From a virus: a stretch of 64,000 nucleotides of DNA. Numbering within the stretch: the stretch's first letter is position 1; the number at the start of each line of letters is the position of its first letter. A program made the position numbers and the translations under genes. The stretch is taken from IMG/VR virus record IMGVR_UViG_3300024999_000086, positions 1-64,000 of that record; one strand, written 5' to 3'. Positions 831 to 58,055 of the stretch are shown here, piece by piece. Below the pieces are notes generated by a model. That model was not told the DNA's origin and made no database searches. It was given only the letters and a program-made list of their open reading frames with translations.

Positions 831-2138
831 ATGCCTGCTTCTGCAAGTGCTGCTCAAATCCGGTATCTCGAGGAAACCGTCCGCGGGACGACTCCTACTG
901 GGAACCCGACTGAGCTCAGGGTTACTGGTGAATCCTTAAACCAGAGCATCGAGTCCGCCGCCAGCCAGGAGCTCCGCGATGACCGGATGACTCCTGACAG
1001 TATTCTGACTGGCGGCCAGGTTGGTGGAGCGCTAAACTTCGAGATGTCGTTTGAAACTTACGACCCATTTCTTGAAGCGCTGCTCGCCGGAACTTTTACC
1101 ACGATTGGAACGGATAGCACTGCCGAGATCTCGGATGCTACGCTTTCCTCGGTGGATAACAGCATCAACTCTGTGGCCGGGGATATCCCTCACACCTTGA
1201 TCTCCAAGGGGCAGTGGGTCCGGATCGCTTCCGCACGGACTGCTGCAAACGTGGGTATTTACCGGGCGTCGACGTCTACCGCGGCGACGGCGAATAAACT
1301 GATCTTCGAGACTGCGGTCAAGACGGTCACCACGGATGCCACTGCCCATATGACAACCATCTCTTCATCCAGGTTGAAGAATGGGGTTGCTGATCTGCGG
1401 ACGTTCTCGATCGAGAAAGAGTTCACTGACGTTGACCAGCACTTTATGTACACCAGTTGTGGCGTTGAGTCCGCCAGCTTTGACTTCTCGACAGGGTCGA
1501 TGCTGACTGGTTCGCTGAACTTCCTCGGACAGACCAGCGAGCGGGACACTGACACGATGTTTCCGTCCGGGCTGGGTTCGGTTGTTGCAGCGACGACTTC
1601 GCCGGTTATGAACTCTGTGCAGGGAACTACGGTTCTTCTGGATGGGGCTTCTCTCGGGGAGTCTTGTGCTGAGTCTTTTTCTCTGAACATCGGGACCGGG
1701 CTCCGAGGCATTCGGTGTCTGGGTAGCGGGCTCGGGTTCTCTGACCTGATCCAAGGCACCTTTGAGATCACAGCCAACCTCAACATCTTCTTCGGCGCGG
1801 ACTCCTCGGCATCTGTCTACGACAAGATGCTGTTGAACCAGTCGCTGTCGTTCTCGATCGCTGTGTCCGATGCGAATGGAAAGGGTTATGCCTTCAACAT
1901 CGATCGGGCGAAATTGACCAGCTCCGAGATTGTGGCCGGCGGGATCAACACCGACGTTATCATGAACTTGGGCCTGACGGCAACGATTGACACGGTCTCC
2001 AACGCGATGATTAGTATCGATCGCTTTGGTGACACCGGTCCGAGCAGTGTTGCCAGCGCCAGCCCGAGCTCCTCGGTCTCTTCGAGCCCAAGCTCCAGTG
2101 CCTCTTCGAGCGCTTCTTCCAGCCCAAGTGCTTCCTAA
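831..2138 (+). CDS. Major tail tube protein with Ser-rich C-terminal tail
   Basis: A 435-residue protein with a good ribosome-binding site (GGAGG). The N-terminus (ASAAQIRYLEETVRGTTP) and the 'SGGxxxFEMSFETYDPFLEALL' type region match phage tail tube proteins that polymerise into the hollow tail. It precedes the tail-assembly chaperone, as usual. The last about 33 residues are a low-complexity Ser/Pro/Ala tract, the first of several mucin-like tracts on virion proteins here. By analogy with tail tubes carrying C-terminal extensions, the tract may protrude from the tail surface and be glycosylated (inference). Confidence 0.75.
   Translation: MPASASAAQIRYLEETVRGTTPTGNPTELRVTGESLNQSIESAASQELRDDRMTPDSILTGGQVGGALNFEMSFETYDPFLEALLAGTFTTIGTDSTAEISDATLSSVDNSINSVAGDIPHTLISKGQWVRIASARTAANVGIYRASTSTAATANKLIFETAVKTVTTDATAHMTTISSSRLKNGVADLRTFSIEKEFTDVDQHFMYTSCGVESASFDFSTGSMLTGSLNFLGQTSERDTDTMFPSGLGSVVAATTSPVMNSVQGTTVLLDGASLGESCAESFSLNIGTGLRGIRCLGSGLGFSDLIQGTFEITANLNIFFGADSSASVYDKMLLNQSLSFSIAVSDANGKGYAFNIDRAKLTSSEIVAGGINTDVIMNLGLTATIDTVSNAMISIDRFGDTGPSSVASASPSSSVSSSPSSSASSSASSSPSAS
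2038..2135 (+). repeat. Ser/Pro-rich low-complexity coding tract (tail tube C-terminus)
   Basis: In-frame repetition of AGC, TCC, TCG and GCC codons encodes SPSSS and SASSS units at the end of the tail tube protein. The same units recur in the tail-tip protein and in two virion genes at 16.7-18.2 kb. Confidence 0.85.
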
Positions 2139-9200: not shown

Positions 9201-10549
9201 GCGGCGGGTCCGGGGTCAGGGATGATCTGTACATCGGGACAATCGCCGGCCGGCCACAGATCGCAATGGGCGGTGAGTACGTCATCAATCAGCGCTCTAC
9301 TCAGAAACACCTCTCGCTGCTGGAAGCGATCAACGCTGACAAATATCTGATTGGGGGCCCAACCCCGCCGGCAAGTCCGCCCGGGAGCACTCCGAAGCCG
9401 GGATCCCTGCTGAGCGGTGTCAGATCATCAAAGACTCCGGAGGATCTGCAGTCGCTGGTTGATATGCTGGATGATGTGACCCGGTCCATGCGCTTGATGA
9501 GTGGCACAGACCTGGCTAAGGAGATCTTAGAGATTCAGTATCGTTTCTACGATATGATCGAGGAGGCGAAGAAGCTTGGCGCCTCGGAGCAAGATCTGGC
9601 AAAGATCCGACGCCTGCAGGCGATGGAGATCGAGGAAGCAAACAAGAAGGTGGCCCAGGCCCGGTTCGAGTTCATGCGTGGGATCAACGACGAGATCAAC
9701 AATTTCGGGATGACTGATCTTGAGATTGCTCTGCGCGGGACTCGTCGAGAGATGCAGGAGCAGATCGCTGCAGCGAAAGCTCTGGGGCTCGGTGAGTCTG
9801 AACTGATGAAGATCAGGCAGTTGCAGCAGCTTAAGGCCGCTGAGCTTATTGAGGCCCATCGTAAAGAACAGGCAGAGTTCATGCTCAACATCACTGACCA
9901 GATCAAGATGATGGGTATGACGGAGTCAGAGAAGTCCTTATTCCAGCTTAATCGTGAGATGGAGGACATGATCCTTCAGGCGAAAGAGCTTGGTCTGGGT
10001 GAGTCTGAACTGGCAAAGATCCGGGAGCTCTACGGACTCAAGTCTTTGGAGGTGATGAACCAAGGATTGCTGGAGGCGGTCACGGCGATTGGATCGTTTA
10101 AGGATTCCATGGGTGGGATCGAAAGTGCTGCGTTGAAGTCGTCCACAGCGCAACAGAAGCTCTTCGACATCCTGACTCAGGCCAAGGCCGGCGACTTTAA
10201 AGGCGTTGAGACTATCGGCGAGGTCCTGAAAGATATCTCGATCGATAAGTCGAAATATGCTACGGCTGCGGACTACGCTCGGGATTATTGGAAGACGATG
10301 GGCGCGGTCAACCAGATCGAGAAGTTGACGAATAACAAGATCGCAGGCATCAACACAGAAGTTCCAACGATCAGCAGCCGCGACGCCGAGGCCAACCGCA
10401 AGAGCCAAGACGAGGTCAATACCAGGCTGGACGACCTCAGGGCGTCAGTAGTTGCCGGCAACGTCCAGAACTTGAAGAATACCCAGAAAACTGCCCGGAT
10501 GCTTGACCGATGGGAATCCATTGGTATGCCGGCAACCAGGGTGGCGTAA
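3260..10549 (+). CDS. Tape measure protein
   Basis: A 2,429-residue protein, by far the largest in the window, directly after the chaperone. The N-terminal half is Ala-rich coiled coil. A TP901-type core (AMEGLRHTPTELAAGMREFA and following, about residues 455-700) is visible. Hydrophobic segments lie near residues 424-452, 780-815 and 1615-1635. Three degenerate repeats beginning EAFGD or EAAFGN occur about 77 residues apart (near 1130, 1208 and 1285). Three more repeats near the C-terminus share the pattern 'AKxLGxxExxLxKIRxL' (about 2090-2280). The motif GGEYVINQRST near residue 2010 is common in such proteins. It sets tail length and is probably ejected with the DNA. Confidence 0.9.
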   Translation: MGQIDIGVSVSQRALQDIDKLAAGLQKTGKITDKTAASFKAGSKTISEFLQQVKALQTGFSGVLKMLQAGGAGFSEYLTQVQKATRESAALRSEFKKLTVDGFSYKKSLDGVLSTQLELILNQKAETIALGNLSSQMSKAAALRAKTIALLDGTALASAKVVAVKEAELAIAEATTVSIAREVLAMKSLVIAEAQLTDSQRLAALVTAGLAVEYDAVAVATAAQAKAALAAGAASAKNAAQNKVESLGLRELFDARVKMNVATAASIRAREMENAVAAKSVASKTQLFNIEAELAYLQGAEAKAVAATTITLERKLAVERYLFETEAQVTAGTIGLTRAVIEQTRVEAANQAVALGLAVAYDAQTVAYQAATGAVNANLGAQYSAAKAASTNAVANSQSAAATTQAGRAAAGASGAFTTYGSAVRGAAGAMSMLWFAYGQLLPLMAAFAGVRAAKEAMSLGVAFEYATTSIQSLSKDVEGALMPLDEIQQRLMAMEGLRHTPTELAAGMREFAKAGVAPAEALRDLATMSKFATIADMELGEAIKDVIGLTLAFQPTMKAATGKLFTFADAANMVAAAAMLSITEVDEMSNAFSHAAELGIVSKMRFEEVAASLAIMANAGIRGTKAATSLRTGMLKLQTAGDPVHKMFEKLGRKFNAFNEDGSVKNVVETFKELNKALAGVADEKRIAIFTKLFTARSMKAGAVLSQQVKELDAFILKLRQAAEGVGFIEEKYQDLAHTARAELDYLKVALEKMLLKPVNVEGLSEAISSIRMVVTDISPIFAVFASVIGAIGHDFINLIELAISFVKQLWDLVDGGISFAEVVDLLKTRFTDLVGFISNLNIVNLFREQFYSIDVLFINLGATAKTAAVTIQGVFESLGSMLMVIFGSAINWVIDKIFYIPDAINRMITMIGQATKDIPLLSSFYSPAMSAIGDNLTQAASAVKEAFKIDLSAENAQLKESGDLYASRIAAIKASTDALLAEKAAHYEASIAVDRLASSYGVLADQQQRLPSLGNPAAGGNLASKTLGYYFGAGSSGMSQGSAESPDWLKDSEQKLLDNLLPMRKAREEYEKGVEAILALQKKLEGTAQAISKADVGTMMSNLAAKTIGAGKAFKGSAESIRDFNTRVREAFGDTSQSYLSEYQKLQEKISDTSSKLKSAAEKEFGIGTPETAERMKVINSEMVKAYENADNLEKVALDDFSKKMEEAFGDASTGKLSAFDKMMEKIDDTVIKMESEIKKKFEGDDNGLARMRKELGLLKTEAQETAEELRKSDLKNNLEEIEAAFGNHAQRNMSEFDKELAKINKTYTDQKDAIAKKYPLEQATNATIEDRAAAMAKLDEQYQLAIQNSDILIKKSNNLWDGFALGVKDAIASTKTLGEVGYEVAGELKNAFHDTFVAAIKGDFESIGDLWDSLLDRMLDLFINWIADLIARWAMAQIGNVIMGAFGSGGGSGFGAVLGSLGAALAGNRGGSNGGVGAVGTLGTVAGTGYQMYTGESLSAAIAKGLYNYAFPRSTIAPYTPGSGQPLGSTGSPSGASPGAASAWQTSQNTYGVLSSQAGSLAPQATTALGWTYGATPTVASQVAQYGSYGVLQSQAAAPVAQSAAPAASSFSSYAGIIGAVVSMAIMAYSSQKKKMMPDEADMFNKAGFRPETFASLIGNEFQKTVIPYFGETNAKWDQASNSLIMLADADKAKSAREDNYFKKDPYVTPGALGMQWDETAPTWKKSNSAIREALQLLFDDAQSLERMALNIGKPETFEEFAVALEKLNVAIDPSTAEGLWEWAEASTPSFDKMKKSLTDLNLSSGEMHRALILLEDAAGSASGSSEELEKYLRSLGKTQEEVSQVMADYTGSAISRMRAAGEEYLAATNPVLYSLSMISQQMQEVYTDTSMLTSAVGVFGDEANTASNAIYTLNSVMGSLDYSLQDLDSSATQAGNAIGDAAYDIQAALRVITEGSISTGTTGVGTAEGSATGGLLRGGSGVRDDLYIGTIAGRPQIAMGGEYVINQRSTQKHLSLLEAINADKYLIGGPTPPASPPGSTPKPGSLLSGVRSSKTPEDLQSLVDMLDDVTRSMRLMSGTDLAKEILEIQYRFYDMIEEAKKLGASEQDLAKIRRLQAMEIEEANKKVAQARFEFMRGINDEINNFGMTDLEIALRGTRREMQEQIAAAKALGLGESELMKIRQLQQLKAAELIEAHRKEQAEFMLNITDQIKMMGMTESEKSLFQLNREMEDMILQAKELGLGESELAKIRELYGLKSLEVMNQGLLEAVTAIGSFKDSMGGIESAALKSSTAQQKLFDILTQAKAGDFKGVETIGEVLKDISIDKSKYATAADYARDYWKTMGAVNQIEKLTNNKIAGINTEVPTISSRDAEANRKSQDEVNTRLDDLRASVVAGNVQNLKNTQKTARMLDRWESIGMPATRVA

Positions 10550-10550
10550 T

Positions 10551-12131
10551 ATGAAAGTCATAAAGCCTATCGCGGTTACGGATGCAACCCTGTATGGGTG
10601 TTCAGAGCCTGAAGATGACTATGCTGCCTGGGCAATTGGGACGACCTATGGTGCCGGGGACAAGGTTATAGTTCTCAGTACGCACAAGATCTATGAGTCT
10701 CTGCAGGCGGCAAACACCGGAAACGATCCGACGACCGCAACAGACTGGTGGCTGGATCTGGGCCCGACGAACCGCTGGAAGATGTTTGACAAATCAGTGG
10801 GGTCGGTCACTGCCGCGAATAACTTCCTGATCGTGATGGTCAAACTGACCGATGCTGATTTTGTGGACTCTCTGGCTCTGCTGGATATCGTTGCCAATCA
10901 CGTAGTAATTGAACTCTTGGACGATGCTGTTTATGGGACGATGAGCCCAAGTGCCTCGGCCTCAGCAACAGCGAGCCCGTCAGGGGCAGCAAGTTTGAGT
11001 TCTTCTGTGTCGTCTAGCCCGACGACAAGCCCCTCGAGTAGCGCGTCTTCGAGCCCGAGTACATCAGCGTCTTCGAGCCCAAGCTCTTCGCCATCGTCCA
11101 GCCCGACGACGAGCCCGAGTACATCAGCGTCTTCGAGCCCGAGTTCTTCACCTTCGTCCAGCCCGACAACGAGCCCGAGCGCTTCAGTATCAGGGAGCCC
11201 GACGACTAGCCCAAGTTCGTCAGAAAGCGCAAGCCCGAGTTCTTCAGCCAGCAGCAGTTTGAGTGCTTCAACCAGCCCGTCTGGAGGACCAAGTGTCAGC
11301 GCCTCTGGGGGGCCCAGCACCAGCTCCAGCCTGTCAAATAGCCCATCAGCATCGCCGAGTGCCAGCGGGGGCAACTATCTGACCGACGGTGACGGGAACT
11401 TCTTGGTTGATGGGGCGGGCAACAGGTTGAAAGACGGCGGCGTCGGGGATGACGGTGGGGCCTCGTCTTCAGCTTCGTCGAGCGTATCCTCAAGCCCGAC
11501 GACAAGTTTGAGTTCTTCTGTGTCGTCTAGCCCAACAACAAGCCCGAGCTCGTCAGAGAGTGCAAGCCCAAGTTCGTCAGCCAGCGCCAGCCCTTACCCG
11601 GTTGGAGTGCTCTGGCACTATGAGACTGATTTGATATCTGCTCCGGATGAGACTGACAATGACTGGTATCAATATTTCTTCTCAGCACTGGAGAATCTCG
11701 AAGATTATTTGCTTCTGAATATGCCGACTTACACCAATGCAATCCTTAAAGTTACTCTAACCGGGACGACTGTAGAGGTGGGGACGTTCGCATTTGGAAA
11801 GTCAGTTTACATTGGGGAGACTCAGTGGGGGCTGCAGTTGGGTATACTGGACTATTCGACAAAAGAGACTGACGACTTTGGGGTGACTTCTGTTGTTGAA
11901 CGGGTTTATGCCGACAAGATGGAGTGTGATCTTTTTCTGGAACACAGCATGGTGAGGATGGTTAAGAAATTCCTTTCAAGTGTCAGGGCTACCCCCTGCG
12001 TTTGGATGGGCACCGAGGTCAGTACATTTTCCGAGTTAACAATTGTTTATGGATTCTATAAGAATTTTGATATAGTACTACAAGATTACGGTGGGAGTAT
12101 CTGCTCTCTCGAAATCGAAGGTTTAACTTAA
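10551..12131 (+). CDS. Tail-tip protein with N-terminal carbohydrate-binding module and internal Ser-rich insert
   Basis: The ATG at 10551, one base after the tape measure stop, is preferred to an earlier one inside the tape measure gene. Residues about 20-75 read AAWAIGTTYGAGDKV..HKIYESLQA..DWWLDLGPTNRW, like CBM5/12-type modules at the start of a widespread siphophage tail protein. The C-terminal part (DFGVTSVVERVYADKMECD, RATPCVWMG, YGFYKNF, SLEIEGLT) matches the rest of that protein. Between them lie two mucin-like Ser/Pro/Thr tracts, roughly residues 131-270 and 305-350, separated by a short Gly/Asp-rich stretch (YLTDGDGNFLVDG). The insertion inside a conserved protein is the odd feature. 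Confidence 0.65.
   Translation: MKVIKPIAVTDATLYGCSEPEDDYAAWAIGTTYGAGDKVIVLSTHKIYESLQAANTGNDPTTATDWWLDLGPTNRWKMFDKSVGSVTAANNFLIVMVKLTDADFVDSLALLDIVANHVVIELLDDAVYGTMSPSASASATASPSGAASLSSSVSSSPTTSPSSSASSSPSTSASSSPSSSPSSSPTTSPSTSASSSPSSSPSSSPTTSPSASVSGSPTTSPSSSESASPSSSASSSLSASTSPSGGPSVSASGGPSTSSSLSNSPSASPSASGGNYLTDGDGNFLVDGAGNRLKDGGVGDDGGASSSASSSVSSSPTTSLSSSVSSSPTTSPSSSESASPSSSASASPYPVGVLWHYETDLISAPDETDNDWYQYFFSALENLEDYLLLNMPTYTNAILKVTLTGTTVEVGTFAFGKSVYIGETQWGLQLGILDYSTKETDDFGVTSVVERVYADKMECDLFLEHSMVRMVKKFLSSVRATPCVWMGTEVSTFSELTIVYGFYKNFDIVLQDYGGSICSLEIEGLT
10944..11595 (+). repeat. Two mucin-like Ser/Pro/Thr coding tracts in tail-tip gene
   Basis: The codon pairs AGC-CCG, TCG-TCC and ACG-ACG are reiterated to encode SSPTTSPSSSASSSP-type units. 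The segments 10944-11370 and 11458-11595 are separated by a non-repetitive linker. Near-identical DNA blocks recur inside each tract and in the genes at 17.3-18.2 kb. Confidence 0.85.
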
Positions 12132-16743: not shown

Positions 16744-17415
16744 ATGGAACTTCAAGCCCCGTATCACTTGTTCGGAAATGTCCGAGGCAACAGCTATGTC
16801 AGGGTCGACCCGGTCACCGGCCTTGTGACGTTCAAAGGGCTGGCCAGGCCTTATCTCGGGCTGTGGATTCCATTGACAGCCATGGAGCCGACGTCGGCCC
16901 CGGATTACGACGCGACCAACTTCGGGTACCTTTTCCCGAACAACAGCACCACAGAGTTCCTGACCGCGAACATTGCCCTGGACCATGACTACGCCCCCGG
17001 GACGTCGCTTTATCCCAGGATACTCTGGCACCAGGCTGCAGCGACGCCCCCGGCGTGGAAGATCTCCTACCGGTGGTTGAATCCTGGTGAACAGGTGGGC
17101 GCCTTCACCACGGCGACGGCAACCGGGCAGGAGTACACCTACATCCAAGGCACAATCCTGCAGACATCATATTTCCCGACTATCCCGGGCGCGGGCAAGA
17201 AGATGGGCAGCATTCTGCAGGTCAAGCTCTACCGCGACGACGCGGTATTGGCCGGCGATGCTCTGGCGATCGCCTTTGGCGTGTTCAAAAAGGTCGACAG
17301 CCTGGGGTCGCAGACGTTGACGTTGAAGAGTGTCCCGGGCGCCCAGGTGTCGTCGTCACCGTCAGCTTCAGCTAGCGCCAGCCCGAGCGCTTCACCATCA
17401 GCTTCAGCTTCCTAA
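16744..17415 (+). CDS. Virion beta-sandwich protein with Ser-rich C-terminus
   Basis: A 223-residue protein with an AGGAGAA site 5 nt upstream. Residues 1-195 look like a single beta-sandwich (PRILWHQAAATPPAWKISYRW is typical of a recurrent phage structural family). The last about 25 residues are SPSASAS repeats like those of the tail tube. It forms a pair with the next gene, immediately upstream of the glycosyltransferase block. It may be a virion decoration or fibre component; no enzymatic motif is visible. Confidence 0.5.
   Translation: MELQAPYHLFGNVRGNSYVRVDPVTGLVTFKGLARPYLGLWIPLTAMEPTSAPDYDATNFGYLFPNNSTTEFLTANIALDHDYAPGTSLYPRILWHQAAATPPAWKISYRWLNPGEQVGAFTTATATGQEYTYIQGTILQTSYFPTIPGAGKKMGSILQVKLYRDDAVLAGDALAIAFGVFKKVDSLGSQTLTLKSVPGAQVSSSPSASASASPSASPSASAS
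17342..17412 (+). repeat. Ser/Ala/Pro-rich coding tract
   Basis: Short in-frame repetition encoding SSSPSASASASPSAS at the C-terminus of the upstream virion protein. Codon reiteration is the same kind as in the other tracts. Confidence 0.8.
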
Positions 17416-17426
17416 GGGGGTAGCCA

Positions 17427-18164
17427 ATGAGTCAAGTATTGATTGCGCCGACAACGGCGGCAGCGGAATACAAGATGAAGATTCCGCAGAACCGGTTCAA
17501 CATGACGATCCAGGTCGACGCCAGCATCGGCGCCGCGGAGGTGGTTGAACTTAAGCAGTTGGATACGGATCAGCAGTGGCGGGCGATTGTTCTCGGCGGG
17601 GCACCCCTGGTCCTGTCAGCGTCCAACACTCAAATCAGCTTCACCGCGACGAATCTGATCAAACTGGTGAAGCCCATAACTGTTGCGGCCGTCGGCGTTC
17701 AGTTGCTGTCTGATCTTGGGTTTGGTGAGAACGAGGCATCTGATAGTGCCAGCACGTCAGCATCGAGCAGCGCGTCCTCGAGCCCGAGCTCAAGCGCGTC
17801 CTCAAGCCCGACGACTTCAGCTTCGTCCAGTCCGACGACTTCGCCGTCCTCGAGCGCTTCTTCAAGCCCGAGCGCTTCGCTGTCCGGCAGCGCTACGACA
17901 AGTCCGAGTTCGTCTGCGAGCGCAAGCCCGAGCGCTTCACTGTCCGGCAGTGCTACGACGAGCCCGAGTGCTTCAGCTTCAGGCAGCCCGACGACCAGTG
18001 CGAGCTCAAGCCCGACGACAAGCCCAAGCTCTTCGGCATCGTCCAGCCCGACGACTAGTGCGAGCTCTTCAGCTTCTTCGAGCCCGACGACTTCAGCTTC
18101 AGGAAGCCCGACGACAAGTCCGAGTTCTTCGGCGAGCGCTTCTCCGTCAAGTTCACCGTCTTGA
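17427..18164 (+). CDS. Small virion protein with long mucin-like C-terminal domain
   Basis: The first about 105 residues form a compact beta domain (KIPQNRFNMTIQVDASIGAA). The remaining about 140 residues are almost entirely Ser, Pro, Thr and Ala in SSSPTTS and SSASSS units. Such a protein has a folded attachment domain and a flexible, potentially heavily O-glycosylated brush. It directly precedes the glycosyltransferase gene by 15 nt. It is the most substrate-like protein in the window for that enzyme. The virion location is inferred from context. Confidence 0.55.
   Translation: MSQVLIAPTTAAAEYKMKIPQNRFNMTIQVDASIGAAEVVELKQLDTDQQWRAIVLGGAPLVLSASNTQISFTATNLIKLVKPITVAAVGVQLLSDLGFGENEASDSASTSASSSASSSPSSSASSSPTTSASSSPTTSPSSSASSSPSASLSGSATTSPSSSASASPSASLSGSATTSPSASASGSPTTSASSSPTTSPSSSASSSPTTSASSSASSSPTTSASGSPTTSPSSSASASPSSSPS
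17746..18162 (+). repeat. Long mucin-like Ser/Pro/Thr coding tract
   Basis: About 140 codons of reiterated AGC-CCG-ACG-ACG and TCG-AGC units. Blocks of 15-30 nt recur almost exactly within this tract and in the tail-tip gene, consistent with slippage or recombinational expansion. Confidence 0.85.
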
Positions 18165-18179
18165 TGAGGAGAGACTCTT

Positions 18180-19655
18180 ATGCTGAGCGTGGTTATCCCA
18201 TCCCGCAATGAGCAGGGATATTTGGAGAAGACTATCGAATCCCTCTTGGCCAACGCCGAGGGGGAGATCGAGATTATCGTTGTGCTCGACGGCTGGCTTC
18301 CTGAGAAGCCAATTGAATTTCCAGTGAACGAGCGACAGCAAGTTCACTGGATTCACAACCCGGAGGCGATCGGGCAGCGGCAGGCGATCAACCAGGCAGT
18401 CCGGACGGCTAAAGGCAAGTACATAATGAAGCTGGACGCGCACTGTGCGGTCTCGAAGGGCTTTGACTTGATCTTGGCCAGAGACTGCGAGTACGACATG
18501 ACGATGATTCCCCGGATGTACAACCTGGACGTCGTGACTTGGCAGCCGAAGCTGCACAAACGCACGGACTATATGTACATCGGCCTGGTCGACGGCAATC
18601 TCCGGGCCTGCTATTACAAGAAGCAGCCTGACAACAACAAGATGATCGACGACACCATGTGCTGCATGGGGCCCGGGTTCTTTCTGCACTTGGAGAGGTT
18701 CTGGGAACTCGGCGGCTGTATGGAGGAACACGGCGGCTGGGGGCAGCAGGGCGTGGAAGAGGCCTGCAAGGCAGCACTCAGCGGGGGCCGGATGGTGGTC
18801 AACAAGAACTGCTGGTTCGCTCACTGGTTCCGCGGCGGCGGGGTGCCAGAAGGCCACAAGAAAGGGTTCCCCTACCATATGAGCCAGCACTCGGTCAATA
18901 TCGCTCGGGCTTACAGCAACGACCTCTGGATGAACAACAAGTGGCCGAAACAGGTCCGGACCTTCCAGTGGCTCCTCGACAAATTCAATCCCCCCGGGTG
19001 GAGCAAGGAAGCTATGGCCAAGATCGGGAATCCCGCGGAAGTTTCAGTGGCGCCGGCCTCCTCGCCGGCACGGGCGTTCTTCAATCACATGATGTCCGGG
19101 AATAAGATGCCTACGTGGATGGGTTACACGGTTATCAAATATCCCAACGACCTCATCCTTTATCAGCAGAAACTCTTTGAGCAGAAGCCAGACGTCTTGG
19201 TCGAGGTCGGGACCCACAAGGGCGGCTCGGCCCTGTTCTTTGCTCAGATGATGGATTTGATCGGGCACGGGCGGGTCATCTCAATCGATCGGTCGCACGA
19301 TAAATACCCTCTGCCGCAGCATCCGCGGATCACTTATTTGACCGGGAGGTCGACGGCGACGGAGACGTTGGGAAAGGTCAAGGAGATGGTGAACGGGAGT
19401 TCCGTGATGGTCGTGCTGGACGGTGATCACAGCCGAACGCAGGTGAAGCGTGAGCTGGTACGGTATTCCGACATCGTCACGCAGGGCCAGTACCTCGTCG
19501 CCGAAGACACGGTGATGGGGGAGATGGGCATGCCTAATAACCCGGCCGAGGCCGTCGAGTGGTTTCTGAAGAGGACCGACAAAGTTCGCCGAGAGCGGCC
19601 GGAGGAGCAGTTCATGTTCTCCTGTAACAGTGGGGGCTGGCTGAAACGGATATGA
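18180..19655 (+). CDS. GT2/GT27-like glycosyltransferase fused to CmcI-type methyltransferase
   Basis: A 491-residue two-domain protein. Residues 1-240 are a GT-A glycosyltransferase: VVIPSRNE at the start, a DxH metal motif in LDAHC (86-88), then WGQQGVEEACKAALSGG (187-203) and FAHWFR (213-218). That order mirrors the DxH and 'WGGENxE...CGG...H.FR' signatures of polypeptide GalNAc-transferases that start mucin-type O-glycans on Ser/Thr. Residues about 310-491 are a cephalosporin-hydroxylase/rhamnosyl O-methyltransferase-like domain (VEVGTHKGGSALFFA, LDGDHSR, VAEDT). The gene follows the mucin-like virion genes. Donor sugar and acceptor are inferred, not shown. Confidence 0.7.
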   Translation: MLSVVIPSRNEQGYLEKTIESLLANAEGEIEIIVVLDGWLPEKPIEFPVNERQQVHWIHNPEAIGQRQAINQAVRTAKGKYIMKLDAHCAVSKGFDLILARDCEYDMTMIPRMYNLDVVTWQPKLHKRTDYMYIGLVDGNLRACYYKKQPDNNKMIDDTMCCMGPGFFLHLERFWELGGCMEEHGGWGQQGVEEACKAALSGGRMVVNKNCWFAHWFRGGGVPEGHKKGFPYHMSQHSVNIARAYSNDLWMNNKWPKQVRTFQWLLDKFNPPGWSKEAMAKIGNPAEVSVAPASSPARAFFNHMMSGNKMPTWMGYTVIKYPNDLILYQQKLFEQKPDVLVEVGTHKGGSALFFAQMMDLIGHGRVISIDRSHDKYPLPQHPRITYLTGRSTATETLGKVKEMVNGSSVMVVLDGDHSRTQVKRELVRYSDIVTQGQYLVAEDTVMGEMGMPNNPAEAVEWFLKRTDKVRRERPEEQFMFSCNSGGWLKRI

Positions 19656-20122
19656 AAAAATCAGTCCGACGATTCGTCAAACAACAGGTAGACAGGCTGG
19701 CCGCGGCCGGCGACTGTCTGGAGATCGGATCCTACGATGTTAACGGCAACCTCCGGCAGATCCTAGCCCACACCAACTACACCGGACTTGACATGCGCGA
19801 GGGGACCAACGTCGACGTCGTCGCCAACAGCAACGACTTGCCCTTTCCGGATAACCATTTCGACGTCGTCGTCTGCGTCGAGACCTTTGAACACGACAAG
19901 TTCTTCTGGAAGACCGTAGCTCAGATCAGACGGGTCCTTCGTCCTGGCGGAGTGGTGATTTTAACGGCGCCGAGTATCGACTTCGGCATCCACGAATATC
20001 CCAGTGATTACTGGAGGTTCACCGAGGCCGGCCTGAAGTCCCTTATCGAAGACTGGTGTGGGGAGATCGTTTCACATCACCATGACCGAGCAGCATTCGT
20101 TGCTGGGAGAAAATATGTCTGA
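19652..20122 (+). CDS. Class I SAM-dependent methyltransferase
   Basis: A 156-residue protein that overlaps the preceding gene by 4 nt. It has the Methyltransf_11 pattern: CLEIGSYDVNG (motif I, about residues 25-35), LDMREGTNVDVV, LPFPDNHFDVVVCVETFEH (post I and II) and VLRPGGVVILTAPS. A small-molecule or sugar methyltransferase is most likely. Between two glycosyltransferase-like genes it may methylate the glycan added to virion proteins. Substrate unknown. Confidence 0.75.
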   Translation: MKKSVRRFVKQQVDRLAAAGDCLEIGSYDVNGNLRQILAHTNYTGLDMREGTNVDVVANSNDLPFPDNHFDVVVCVETFEHDKFFWKTVAQIRRVLRPGGVVILTAPSIDFGIHEYPSDYWRFTEAGLKSLIEDWCGEIVSHHHDRAAFVAGRKYV

Positions 20123-21734
20123 TATTAGCTTGATATATTACACAGATAACCAACTTGACCCGTTTCTTTTCGCAAAGTGCCAAGAGAAACTTCTTGAGGC
20201 TGCCCAAGGAAAGCGAATCATTTCTGTTTCGCAGAAGCCTCTTGACTTTGGCGACAACATCTGCGTTGGGAATATCGGCCGGAGCCACGAGTCGCTGTTT
20301 ACCCAGGTCCTCACCGGGGCAAAAGCGGCGACCACGAAGTATGTGGCACTGGTCGAGCACGACTGCCTGTACTCTCCGGAGCATTTCAACTGGCAGCCAC
20401 CAAACGACTTTGTTTTCTGGTACAACGTCAATCACTGGTTCGTGCAGTGGGGCGGTAGCAACACTGGGCAGTACAGCTACCTGCGGCGGAAGGTCCTGTC
20501 CAATCTGATTTGCGAGCGTAACCTCTTGATCGAGGCCGTGGAAGAGAAGTTGGCAATTCTCAAGCAAGGCGCCCAAATCCGAAAGGGGTTGCCTGGGGCT
20601 TGTGAGCCTGGGGTCTGTTCAAATGAAGACGCCTTCGTCGGGATTGTAGGTAAGGACTTGGGTAAGGTCCCTGGAGACTATAGAGCCAGGGGCTTTTCAA
20701 CGGTGGTGCCAAACCTTGATATCCGGCACGGGCAAAACTTCTCTGGCGGGCGGATTGCCAAGAAGAAGTGCTACTCCCTGCCGTACTGGGGGAGCTTCCA
20801 CTCTGTAATGGGCGTGATCCCTCCCGGTGAGTGGTATCAGGAAGCGACTGTGCATGGCGTTCAGATGCCCACTCGTCGGACGAACGATACGAACGAGAAG
20901 CGATGGCACAAGTTCATCAAGCCTCTGATTGAGGGCCCCATAGTGGGGAGGATGACTGACTTGGGCTGCAACGCCGGCTTCTATTGCCGAAAGTTTTCTG
21001 ATCTGGGGTTCAAAGCAACCGGGGTCGAGCGCGACCCTGAGGTCCTTCGTCACAACTACTGGTGGGAAGAGCACGAGCCCAAGGGTGTCAGAGTCGTCGA
21101 GTCCGATATCAACGACTATTCTCCATCCTGCTCTGATTATGTTCTCCTTGCCAACGTCCACTACTGGCTGACGCCGGCACATCTGCAGACGTTGGTGCAA
21201 AAGCTCAACGACCGAGCTTTGAACGTGATCTTGATCGGGAGGTACAACACGGCCTCGGTTCACAAGTCGCCGGCTGACCTGCAGTTTTTGCGGAAGCTCT
21301 TCAGAGGTTGGCAGGAGAAACGAGTGATCAAGGGCGTCAAGCACTTTTCGGTGTTGTTCCGGAACCCGACGTTGATCTCAAGAAGTGTGGATGATCTGTT
21401 CACGAAACAGCAGTTTTTTAAGAGCAGTCGCTTTTTACCTTCATATTCTCGGTTGATTGATGATATACTGGAAGGCAAGAACGGCAATTATCAGGATTCC
21501 GAGTATCACAAATATCTTCTTTGGCGAGGATTTAAAGACAGTACTGAACTTCTCAAGCGCCACGTCGACCTTGTCGCCAGTATTCAACAGGAGGGGACCA
21601 AGGATCCGCTGTTGATCGGGCGAGTGGTCAATGGTAAATACGAGCCGGACAGACTGGTCGACGGCGACCATCGGCTGATCGTTGCAAAGAAACTGGGTAT
21701 TCAAAATGTTATTTGTCGTGTCGTCAAACAGTAG
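20115..21734 (+). CDS. Triple fusion: glycosyltransferase-like, methyltransferase, ParB-like
   Basis: The start is set at 20115, where a GGGAGA site precedes ATG. The 539-residue protein has three parts. Residues about 1-230 look like a GT-A fold with an acidic motif in EHDCLY (about residue 82) and aromatic-rich FVFWYNVNHWF. Residues about 270-400 form a SAM methyltransferase (DLGCNAGFYCRKFSDLGF, VERDPE, LANVHYWL). The C-terminal about 80 residues resemble a ParB-N/sulfiredoxin-like domain (DPLLIGRV, VDGDHRLIVAKKLG). ParB-like domains can hydrolyse NTPs or act in nucleotide chemistry. I infer a role in glycan or nucleotide-sugar processing. Confidence 0.55.
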   Translation: MSDISLIYYTDNQLDPFLFAKCQEKLLEAAQGKRIISVSQKPLDFGDNICVGNIGRSHESLFTQVLTGAKAATTKYVALVEHDCLYSPEHFNWQPPNDFVFWYNVNHWFVQWGGSNTGQYSYLRRKVLSNLICERNLLIEAVEEKLAILKQGAQIRKGLPGACEPGVCSNEDAFVGIVGKDLGKVPGDYRARGFSTVVPNLDIRHGQNFSGGRIAKKKCYSLPYWGSFHSVMGVIPPGEWYQEATVHGVQMPTRRTNDTNEKRWHKFIKPLIEGPIVGRMTDLGCNAGFYCRKFSDLGFKATGVERDPEVLRHNYWWEEHEPKGVRVVESDINDYSPSCSDYVLLANVHYWLTPAHLQTLVQKLNDRALNVILIGRYNTASVHKSPADLQFLRKLFRGWQEKRVIKGVKHFSVLFRNPTLISRSVDDLFTKQQFFKSSRFLPSYSRLIDDILEGKNGNYQDSEYHKYLLWRGFKDSTELLKRHVDLVASIQQEGTKDPLLIGRVVNGKYEPDRLVDGDHRLIVAKKLGIQNVICRVVKQ

Positions 21735-56830: not shown

Positions 56831-56990
56831 TTGAACCTCCCCACCAGCAACCTTGGGGATTCCGGACGAGACTCATATTTGACACAAGCCTCTTTCGAGG
56901 GCCGTCCCAGCCCCAAAATTGAGTACGTTGATCGCAGCATTCTGATCACGATCATGCAGAGATCCACACTCTTGACATACCCAATTTCTT
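56831..56990 (-). ncRNA. Putative omega-RNA / right end of TnpB element
   Basis: After the tnpB stop the minus strand reads GGAATCCCC-AAGGTTGCTGGT-GGGGAGGTTCAA (56862-56831, approximate). A CCCC/GGGG hairpin followed by GAGGTTCAA is typical of IS200/IS605-type right ends, where the guide-RNA scaffold ends and the guide begins. The 5' boundary inside tnpB is a guess. The sequence after 56831 would be the guide. Confidence 0.4.
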
Positions 56991-57928
56991 ACCGACAGTC
57001 CTGCCCAACCTGTAGGTCCTGACAGGCACCCACAATTTGAACAGATCCTGGTGGAATTTTTGCTAGCAGGCTCGTCATACTGCGTACCGCCGATATGGCT
57101 ACTCTTGTAAGCAAGCATTGCACGAAGCTGCCCGTGACCTGAACTTGTCACGCTTTTTCCAAATTTCTTAGCAATCCCTTTAATGTTATCTTTGCTGAAA
57201 CGGATCACAGTATTTTCAGCAACAAGTTTCCTGGAAAGTTTGTGATTCCGGTCTTTCCGTTGATTGGCAATTCGTTCATGGATTCTTGCCACGAGTTTCT
57301 TATCCTTCCCCCGCTGCGCTTGTGCCAGTCGTTTTGCTGAAGCTTCCAGTTCTCTGGGGTGCTCAACTTTCTCCCCTGTTGAGAATGTCAAGAGGCTTTT
57401 AAACCCGGGGTCAATCCCGATTTTTCCAAAACCAACCCGCTCAATTTCTTTCGGGGCAGCATCAATAAAAAGACACAAATGCCACCCGCTTGCCCTTTTT
57501 ATGAGTCGCCCACATTTGATCCGCCCTTCGGGCAAGAACTGTTTGTGGAACCGGACCAAGCCCAGTACCGGCAACTTGACGTGGCTGCCCTCCGGGCATC
57601 GGATTGGATCAGGAAAAGGGATCGACACCAGCTTGTTTCTCTGTCCTTTGAGTTTAGGTCTGCCGCCCTGTTTTCTGAAACACCGCTGCCAAGCTGCATG
57701 AACAGTGGAAAGCACCCCCTGAATACAATGCCCTGGAACCCCAACTTTTTTGGCATGGCCTGCCAAAAGATTCTGGAAATTCATGGGTGAATGATAAATC
57801 TTATCATCAGCATCTAGTTGGATCTTTCGCACTGCCCAGTTATAGACCCCGGTCAAGTGCCAGAGCCATTCGTCAAGTCTTTTTTCAAGCTTTACGTTTG
57901 GCCTGAGTTTGAGTTGTACTTGAATCAC
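56873..57928 (-). CDS. tnpB: TnpB/OrfB-like RNA-guided nuclease homologue
   Basis: A GTG at 57928 lies 7 nt after AAGGAG and is preferred to the ATG 84 nt upstream. 351 residues. Family features in order: WLWHLTGVYNWAV (N-terminal), RuvC-I FGKIGIDPGFKSLLTFS, GKSVTSSGHGQLRAMLAYK, zinc finger CSNCG..CQECG and RuvC-III HDRDQNAAINVLNFG. The RuvC-II Glu expected in an 'xxxEDL' segment is not obvious; the aligned stretch reads VIRFSKDNIKG, so activity is uncertain. No TnpA is present. Confidence 0.8.
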   Translation of the reverse strand: MIQVQLKLRPNVKLEKRLDEWLWHLTGVYNWAVRKIQLDADDKIYHSPMNFQNLLAGHAKKVGVPGHCIQGVLSTVHAAWQRCFRKQGGRPKLKGQRNKLVSIPFPDPIRCPEGSHVKLPVLGLVRFHKQFLPEGRIKCGRLIKRASGWHLCLFIDAAPKEIERVGFGKIGIDPGFKSLLTFSTGEKVEHPRELEASAKRLAQAQRGKDKKLVARIHERIANQRKDRNHKLSRKLVAENTVIRFSKDNIKGIAKKFGKSVTSSGHGQLRAMLAYKSSHIGGTQYDEPASKNSTRICSNCGCLSGPTGWAGLSVRNWVCQECGSLHDRDQNAAINVLNFGAGTALERGLCQI

Positions 57929-58055
57929 GCTTCCGCTCCTTGTCCCAGTAGGCACTCTTGCATTTTGGACAGATGCGGACATCCAGTTTCCGGGGAAACC
58001 ACCTGTGTCCACACCTCTTGCAAGTCAATTTTAAATCCTCAGTTATCATACTCAT
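57885..58055 (-). CDS. 56-residue zinc-ribbon protein upstream of tnpB
   Basis: ATG after AGGTGAT, a frame of 56 codons overlapping the tnpB start by 44 nt. CKRCGHRWFPRKLDVRIC PKC..YWD matches a very widespread small zinc-ribbon family with the CxxCGHxWxPR...CPxCKSxYWD pattern. It may belong to the phage rather than the element. Function unknown. Confidence 0.6.
   Translation of the reverse strand: MSMITEDLKLTCKRCGHRWFPRKLDVRICPKCKSAYWDKERKRDSSTTQTQAKRKA

Follow-up and report, generated by a model that had tools for sequence, protein, structure and literature searches.

GalNAc-transferase-type glycosylation of Ser and Thr is regarded as a eukaryotic trait and has been said not to occur in bacteria (PMC5504323). 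In GALNT1, the metal triad is formed by D209, H211, and H344 (PMC4202792), and an Asp, a His, and a distal His bind Mn both in this enzyme and in TxgGalNAc-T3 (PMC4202792, PMC11074326). Among phages, virion glycosylation has been described in mycobacteriophages (Freeman et al. 2023, via PMC12619734 and PMC11256854), whose tail tubes reportedly carry glycans at the C-terminus (PMC12619734, citing Freeman et al. 2023). Here we describe what is likely a GT27-like glycosylation cassette coupled to Ser tracts, well supported by the predicted fold, the active site, and a genomic association that runs both ways, with the chemistry inferred. We found no earlier description of such a system of glycosyltransferase (GT) and tract in the literature that we searched, which omits most subscription papers. 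What is new is that the pairing recurs in many uncultivated phages, which suggests that viral sugar-coating of virions may be widespread, an inference for which there are no bench data.

The window, that is, the whole 64,000-base stretch of DNA that was analysed, corresponds to positions 1-64000 of a virus record 72,108 bases long and encodes a tape measure protein (PF10145, E 9e-27), a DNA polymerase A, and a helicase, in addition to the features collected in Table 1. It also carries a TnpB/OrfB-like gene (56873-58012; IS605, Cas12f1-like TNB), and an ORF resembling it by eye lies directly 3' of the cassette in a related contig (L002:11609-12820).

Table 1. Features of the putative glycosylation cassette and of its tract proteins, in window coordinates.
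Feature	Coordinates	Strand	Evidence
Tail tube protein (Phage_tube_2)	831..2138	+	PF18906, E 1e-32; C-terminal Ser tract
Post-tape-measure protein	10503..12131	+	phrog_6278, E 2e-68; two Ser/Thr/Pro tracts
Small protein with short C-terminal SxSx tail	16744..17415	+	Sequence
Small protein with ~93-aa N-terminal domain and 152-residue Ser/Thr/Pro tract	17427..18164	+	
GT-A domain resembling polypeptide GalNAc-transferases	18180..19031	+	PDB profile, AlphaFold, Foldseek, residue statistics
CmcI / rhamnosyl O-methyltransferase-type domain, fused to GT	19113..19652	+	PF04989, E 3.8e-42
SAM-dependent methyltransferase	19652..20122	+	PF08241, E 4.7e-13
Second GT-A-like domain ("IY domain"), invariant ExD	20115..20858	+	Fold model
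Methyltransferase domain of ORF 20115-21734	20826..21212	+	TIGR04290, E 4.3e-07
Weak ParB-like C-terminal domain of ORF 20115-21734	21567..21728	+	PHROG, E about 1e-3

A preliminary description, made from the sequence alone, had placed Ser/Thr/Pro tracts on the tail tube, a tail tip protein, and two small proteins beside the GT, and all of these tracts were found as located. In the tail tube protein, the tract corresponds to residues 394-435 (bases 2010-2135), and the protein encoded immediately downstream of the tape measure gene carries tracts at residues 143-289 and 310-371 (bases 10929-11615). The tract of ORF 16744-17415 is limited to approximately 21 C-terminal residues (about 17350-17412), while that of ORF 17427-18164 extends over residues 94-245 (bases 17706-18161), with Ser at 78 of its 152 positions; the product of this last ORF, which adjoins the enzyme, is likely the main acceptor, its modification being inferred. 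The further claim that all four are virion proteins held only in part, as the two small ORFs have no Pfam or PHROG match and, without a family match, the virion location of their products is not confirmed.

The Ser codons of the longest of these small-protein tracts, in ORF 17427-18164, are mixed (42 TCN and 36 AGY), and comparison with the 90%-identical relative L002 reveals 12 TCN/AGY switches; selection therefore acts on Ser at the protein level. An origin of this tract as a DNA microsatellite was ruled out by the codon mixing. Conservation of the tracts is also seen at the tail tube, where a C-terminal Ser tract is present in the window phage and in the distant phage L512, as well as in the relative L511, where the tract sequence differs; the tail tubes L509 and L513, which come from GT-bearing contigs, are without one. 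A protein of the Streptomyces phage Galactica that is homologous to the body of one tract protein was also considered, and it has no such tract.

The N-terminal part of ORF 18180-19655 matches PF00535 (E 1.2e-17) and is followed by a CmcI-type domain. Its DxH motif is DAH, at residues 86-88 (bases 18435-18443), and the distal His is H215 in FAHWFR (bases 18822-18824); both motifs align with those of GalNAc-transferases, whose order the preliminary description had said they mirror. When GT relatives were collected and aligned and the family profile was run against the PDB, the top six matches were all GalNAc-transferases (GT27; best E 3e-14), the match spanning positions 5-243 of the 281 in the profile, acceptor half included, and ordinary GT2 enzymes aligned with the first 80-130 positions only. 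Similarly, for an AlphaFold model with a pLDDT of 90.8, the 50 best Foldseek matches in the PDB were without exception GalNAc-transferases from animals and Toxoplasma (E from 5e-15), so the finding that was to refute the preliminary description, a structure lacking a GalNAc-transferase-like site, did not materialize. These enzymes rank first only with a profile or a fold, not in a single-sequence PDB search, in which the ordinary GT2 enzyme 6p61 (4e-4) outranks GalNAc-T10 (0.05). Among about 220 GT relatives, D86 is conserved in 219 of 220, H88 in 218 of 219, H215 in 213 of 213, and E193 in 210 of 215.

Two departures from GT27 are worth consideration. The sugar-binding motif WGGEN of GalNAc-transferases is altered to WGQxG in the phage enzyme, and thus the donor may not be UDP-GalNAc. 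In addition, no ricin-B lectin domain was matched in ORF 18180-19655, where the CmcI domain is found instead, and because of this missing domain we class the enzyme as GT27-like and not as a GT27 member. The metal triad and the predicted fold on which this class rests are shown, the fold being a model prediction, and GalNAc transfer to Ser/Thr is inferred. In the contigs of L376 (G015) and L265 (G034), the GT matches are interrupted by in-frame stops (TAA; TAG), which could stem from decay, errors, or stop recoding.

The predicted fusion of the GT to a CmcI-like methyltransferase also held: the PF04989 (RMNT_CmcI) match covers 8-206 of 206, the CmcI structures 2bm8 and 2br3 are matched as well, and 22 such fusion ORFs were counted among the fetched loci, some of them the same record twice. 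Two further genes had been read as a methyltransferase and a GT-like/methyltransferase/ParB-like enzyme, which was confirmed, with weak GT2 and ParB-like parts in the latter (ORF 20058-21734, for which ATG 20115 is the better start). Within this ORF, the second GT-A-like domain has invariant E81 and D83, and its predicted model matches GT-A enzymes by fold; a PDB profile search by sequence gave no match. It is present in 104 of 128 GT loci, was never seen without the first GT among the loci examined, and forms a fusion with that GT in 60 ORFs elsewhere. While these domain assignments are shown, sugar methylation by the CmcI-type domain is inferred.

Near the GT loci we found many methyltransferases, along with DegT aminotransferase, epimerase, UDP-glucose dehydrogenase, sulfotransferase, and GT17 genes, the NDP-sugar genes accounting for a minority of the scanned neighbours only; this content is as would be expected of a glycan pathway. 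In one locus (L006:7989-10325), a GIY-YIG-like homing endonuclease segment, recognized by eye, separates the GT from the second GT-A-like domain without breaking the reading frame. Another GT-tract cluster contains two sulfotransferase-like genes (L003:10946-11575 and L003:13207-13767), one matched in the neighbour scan and the other recognized by eye, which suggests sulfated glycans.

The GT family is large, with at least 522 viral matches, and the 80 viral loci that we studied are the top scorers among a larger number, so that the rates given here do not cover more distant members. A protein with an alternating Ser (Ser-x-Ser-x) tract was present in 36 of the 39 viral GT loci with at least 15 kb of sequence, and the nearest tract gene lay on the GT strand in 60/60 loci, at a median distance of 354 bp. 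Clustering of the GT at 70% identity left the picture in place, with a tract in 26 of 27 clusters. The non-tract bodies of 27 tract proteins fell into 19 groups without blastp homology to each other, a comparison that left out nine more proteins whose non-tract part falls short of 60 residues; since the bodies are mostly unrelated, the association is with the tract itself. A set of 138 random viral loci totalling 1.25 Mb contained no GT, no second GT-A-like domain, and only two tracts, of Thr or Gly type, and whole-contig searches of random viral contigs gave no GT in 67 (0/17 plus 0/50 further).

In the reverse test, with contigs picked by their tracts, the GT was present in 9/16 Ser-tract and 0/33 Thr-Pro-tract contigs; Fisher tests gave 1e-22 from GT to tract and 3e-7 from tract to GT. 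Tracts were sorted into Ser-type and Thr-Pro-type by eye with the GT status visible, which qualifies the 9/16; the forward test is independent of this sorting. Of the seven Ser-tract contigs without the GT, one measures 135 kb and most others are fragments. With that qualification, the statistical coupling of enzyme and tract is shown. As a tract detector, a TCN-only codon pattern was discarded, being swamped by microsatellites and shadow frames, and an S-P-S-x pattern was added to the search. Linkage to GT2 enzymes in general was also rejected, any GT2 being present in 8/33 Thr-Pro-tract contigs and the phage GT family in none. Those eight contigs (L265, L269, L271, L285, L287, L304, L338, L374), compared with 0/17 random ones, hint that Thr-Pro tracts may have a parallel system of their own.

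Regarding distribution, DNA-similarity and tblastn searches of 50,697 catalogued phage records with the GT found no homologue, and therefore there is no cultured model; the parallel that the preliminary description drew with actinobacteriophage glycosylation remains an analogy only. Matches in genomes are mostly to metagenome-assembled genomes (MAGs) of Patescibacteria (CPR), 14 of 41 having tracts. Their flanks are part phage and part chromosomal, the chromosomal-looking ones including SH3 domains, a carbamoyltransferase, and an IS200-like transposase, and portal and head protease genes mark some CPR-binned contigs as phage. A Patescibacteria host for the window phage is plausible but has not been shown. 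Two GT relatives (L139, L142) come from contigs assigned to Nitrosotalea and Heimdallarchaeota bins.

We consider it likely, with a probability of roughly 0.8, that the phage O-glycosylates Ser tracts of its own virion with modified glycans, in the absence of biochemical or mass-spectrometry data. In the manner of GalNAc-transferases, the GT-A domain would use D86, H88, and H215 to bind a metal-UDP-sugar, and would move the sugar onto Ser (and Thr) hydroxyls in disordered Ser-x-Ser-x tracts. The putative acceptors are the small proteins 16744 and 17427 together with the tail tube and the post-tape-measure protein; that the acceptor is a peptide is inferred, as is the order of the steps. The second GT-A-like domain may then lengthen the glycan, whose sugar hydroxyls would be methylated, again by inference, by the CmcI-type domain and the other methyltransferases. 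The virion tail would finally display mucin-like capped glycans, a display that is inferred beyond the tail tube, with stability, adhesion, or shielding as plausible benefits. Thus, the earlier proposal of a tail decorated with methylated O-glycans is supported, with the modification of Ser, the identity of GalNAc, and glycan methylation still inferred.

Other explanations can be envisaged. The cluster might remodel host surface glycans for serotype conversion or superinfection exclusion, the tracts being unmodified flexible linkers in the same late operon. The GT does weakly match (E 0.0066) a GtrB-like family involved in O-antigen conversion, and proximity to tail genes is common for receptor-linked genes; however, its nearest fold is the polypeptide-acceptor GT27 and not a lipid-linked GT2, it associates with the tract whichever protein carries it, and no GtrA/Gtr partner was noticed, without a specific search. 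We regard this possibility as very unlikely. No more credible is a Patescibacteria system acting on secreted or surface host proteins, of which phages would carry auxiliary copies. The CPR MAGs with tracts and the chromosomal-looking flanks speak for it, but in the window one tract belongs to the tail tube and others lie next to the tape measure gene, a phage hallmark (tail, terminase, or portal; four Pfam models, with one contig counted by a match below the curated cut-off) is present in at least 18 of 38 large GT contigs, and some CPR-binned contigs are themselves phage.

A third possibility is compatible with virion glycosylation as preferred here and differs only in that the first sugar would not be GalNAc; it might be, for instance, a hexose, GlcNAc, or an amino or uronic sugar from the clustered NDP-sugar genes. 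The change at the sugar-binding motif and the UDP-glucose dehydrogenases, DegT, and epimerases of some clusters favour it, whereas the catalytic domain as a whole is most like GT27 and NDP-sugar genes make up a minority of the scanned neighbours only, and we see no reason to prefer either answer. A bolder reading, which we find unlikely, is that these enzymes are a large undescribed prokaryotic-virus branch of the GalNAc-transferase lineage making true mucin-like virions, perhaps sharing ancestry with, or being the source of, eukaryotic mucin-type O-glycosylation.

If virion glycosylation is confirmed, hundreds of uncultivated phages would hold a testable prokaryotic counterpart of GalNAc-transferase-type glycosylation and a natural set of enzyme-acceptor pairs, and there would be a reason for the widespread Ser tracts in metagenomic virion proteins. 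With CAZy GT27 (animals, Toxoplasma), the phage GT has in common the GT-A fold, the DxH and distal His, the W-G and H-x-F-R motifs in matching order, and, by inference, Ser/Thr/Pro-rich disordered substrates; it differs in lacking the ricin-B lectin domain, in its altered WGGEN, in having a methyltransferase or a second GT-A-like domain fused to it, and in occurring in phages and CPR contigs. Bacterial serine-rich repeat (PMC7948813) and SD-repeat glycoproteins (SdgA/SdgB, PMC3794999) similarly rely on dedicated GTs for the Ser of long Ser-rich repeats, but these are cell-wall adhesins and not virion proteins. Their GTs belong to other types. Mycobacteriophages share phage-encoded GTs with this system, and their glycans at the C-termini of the capsid and tail tube recall the position of the tract, but their GTs are not described in PMC12619734 or PMC11256854 as GT27-like with long SxSx tracts. 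The window record combines, around a glycan that is itself inferred, a phage-encoded GT and an acceptor-like tract on a known virion protein, the tail tube.
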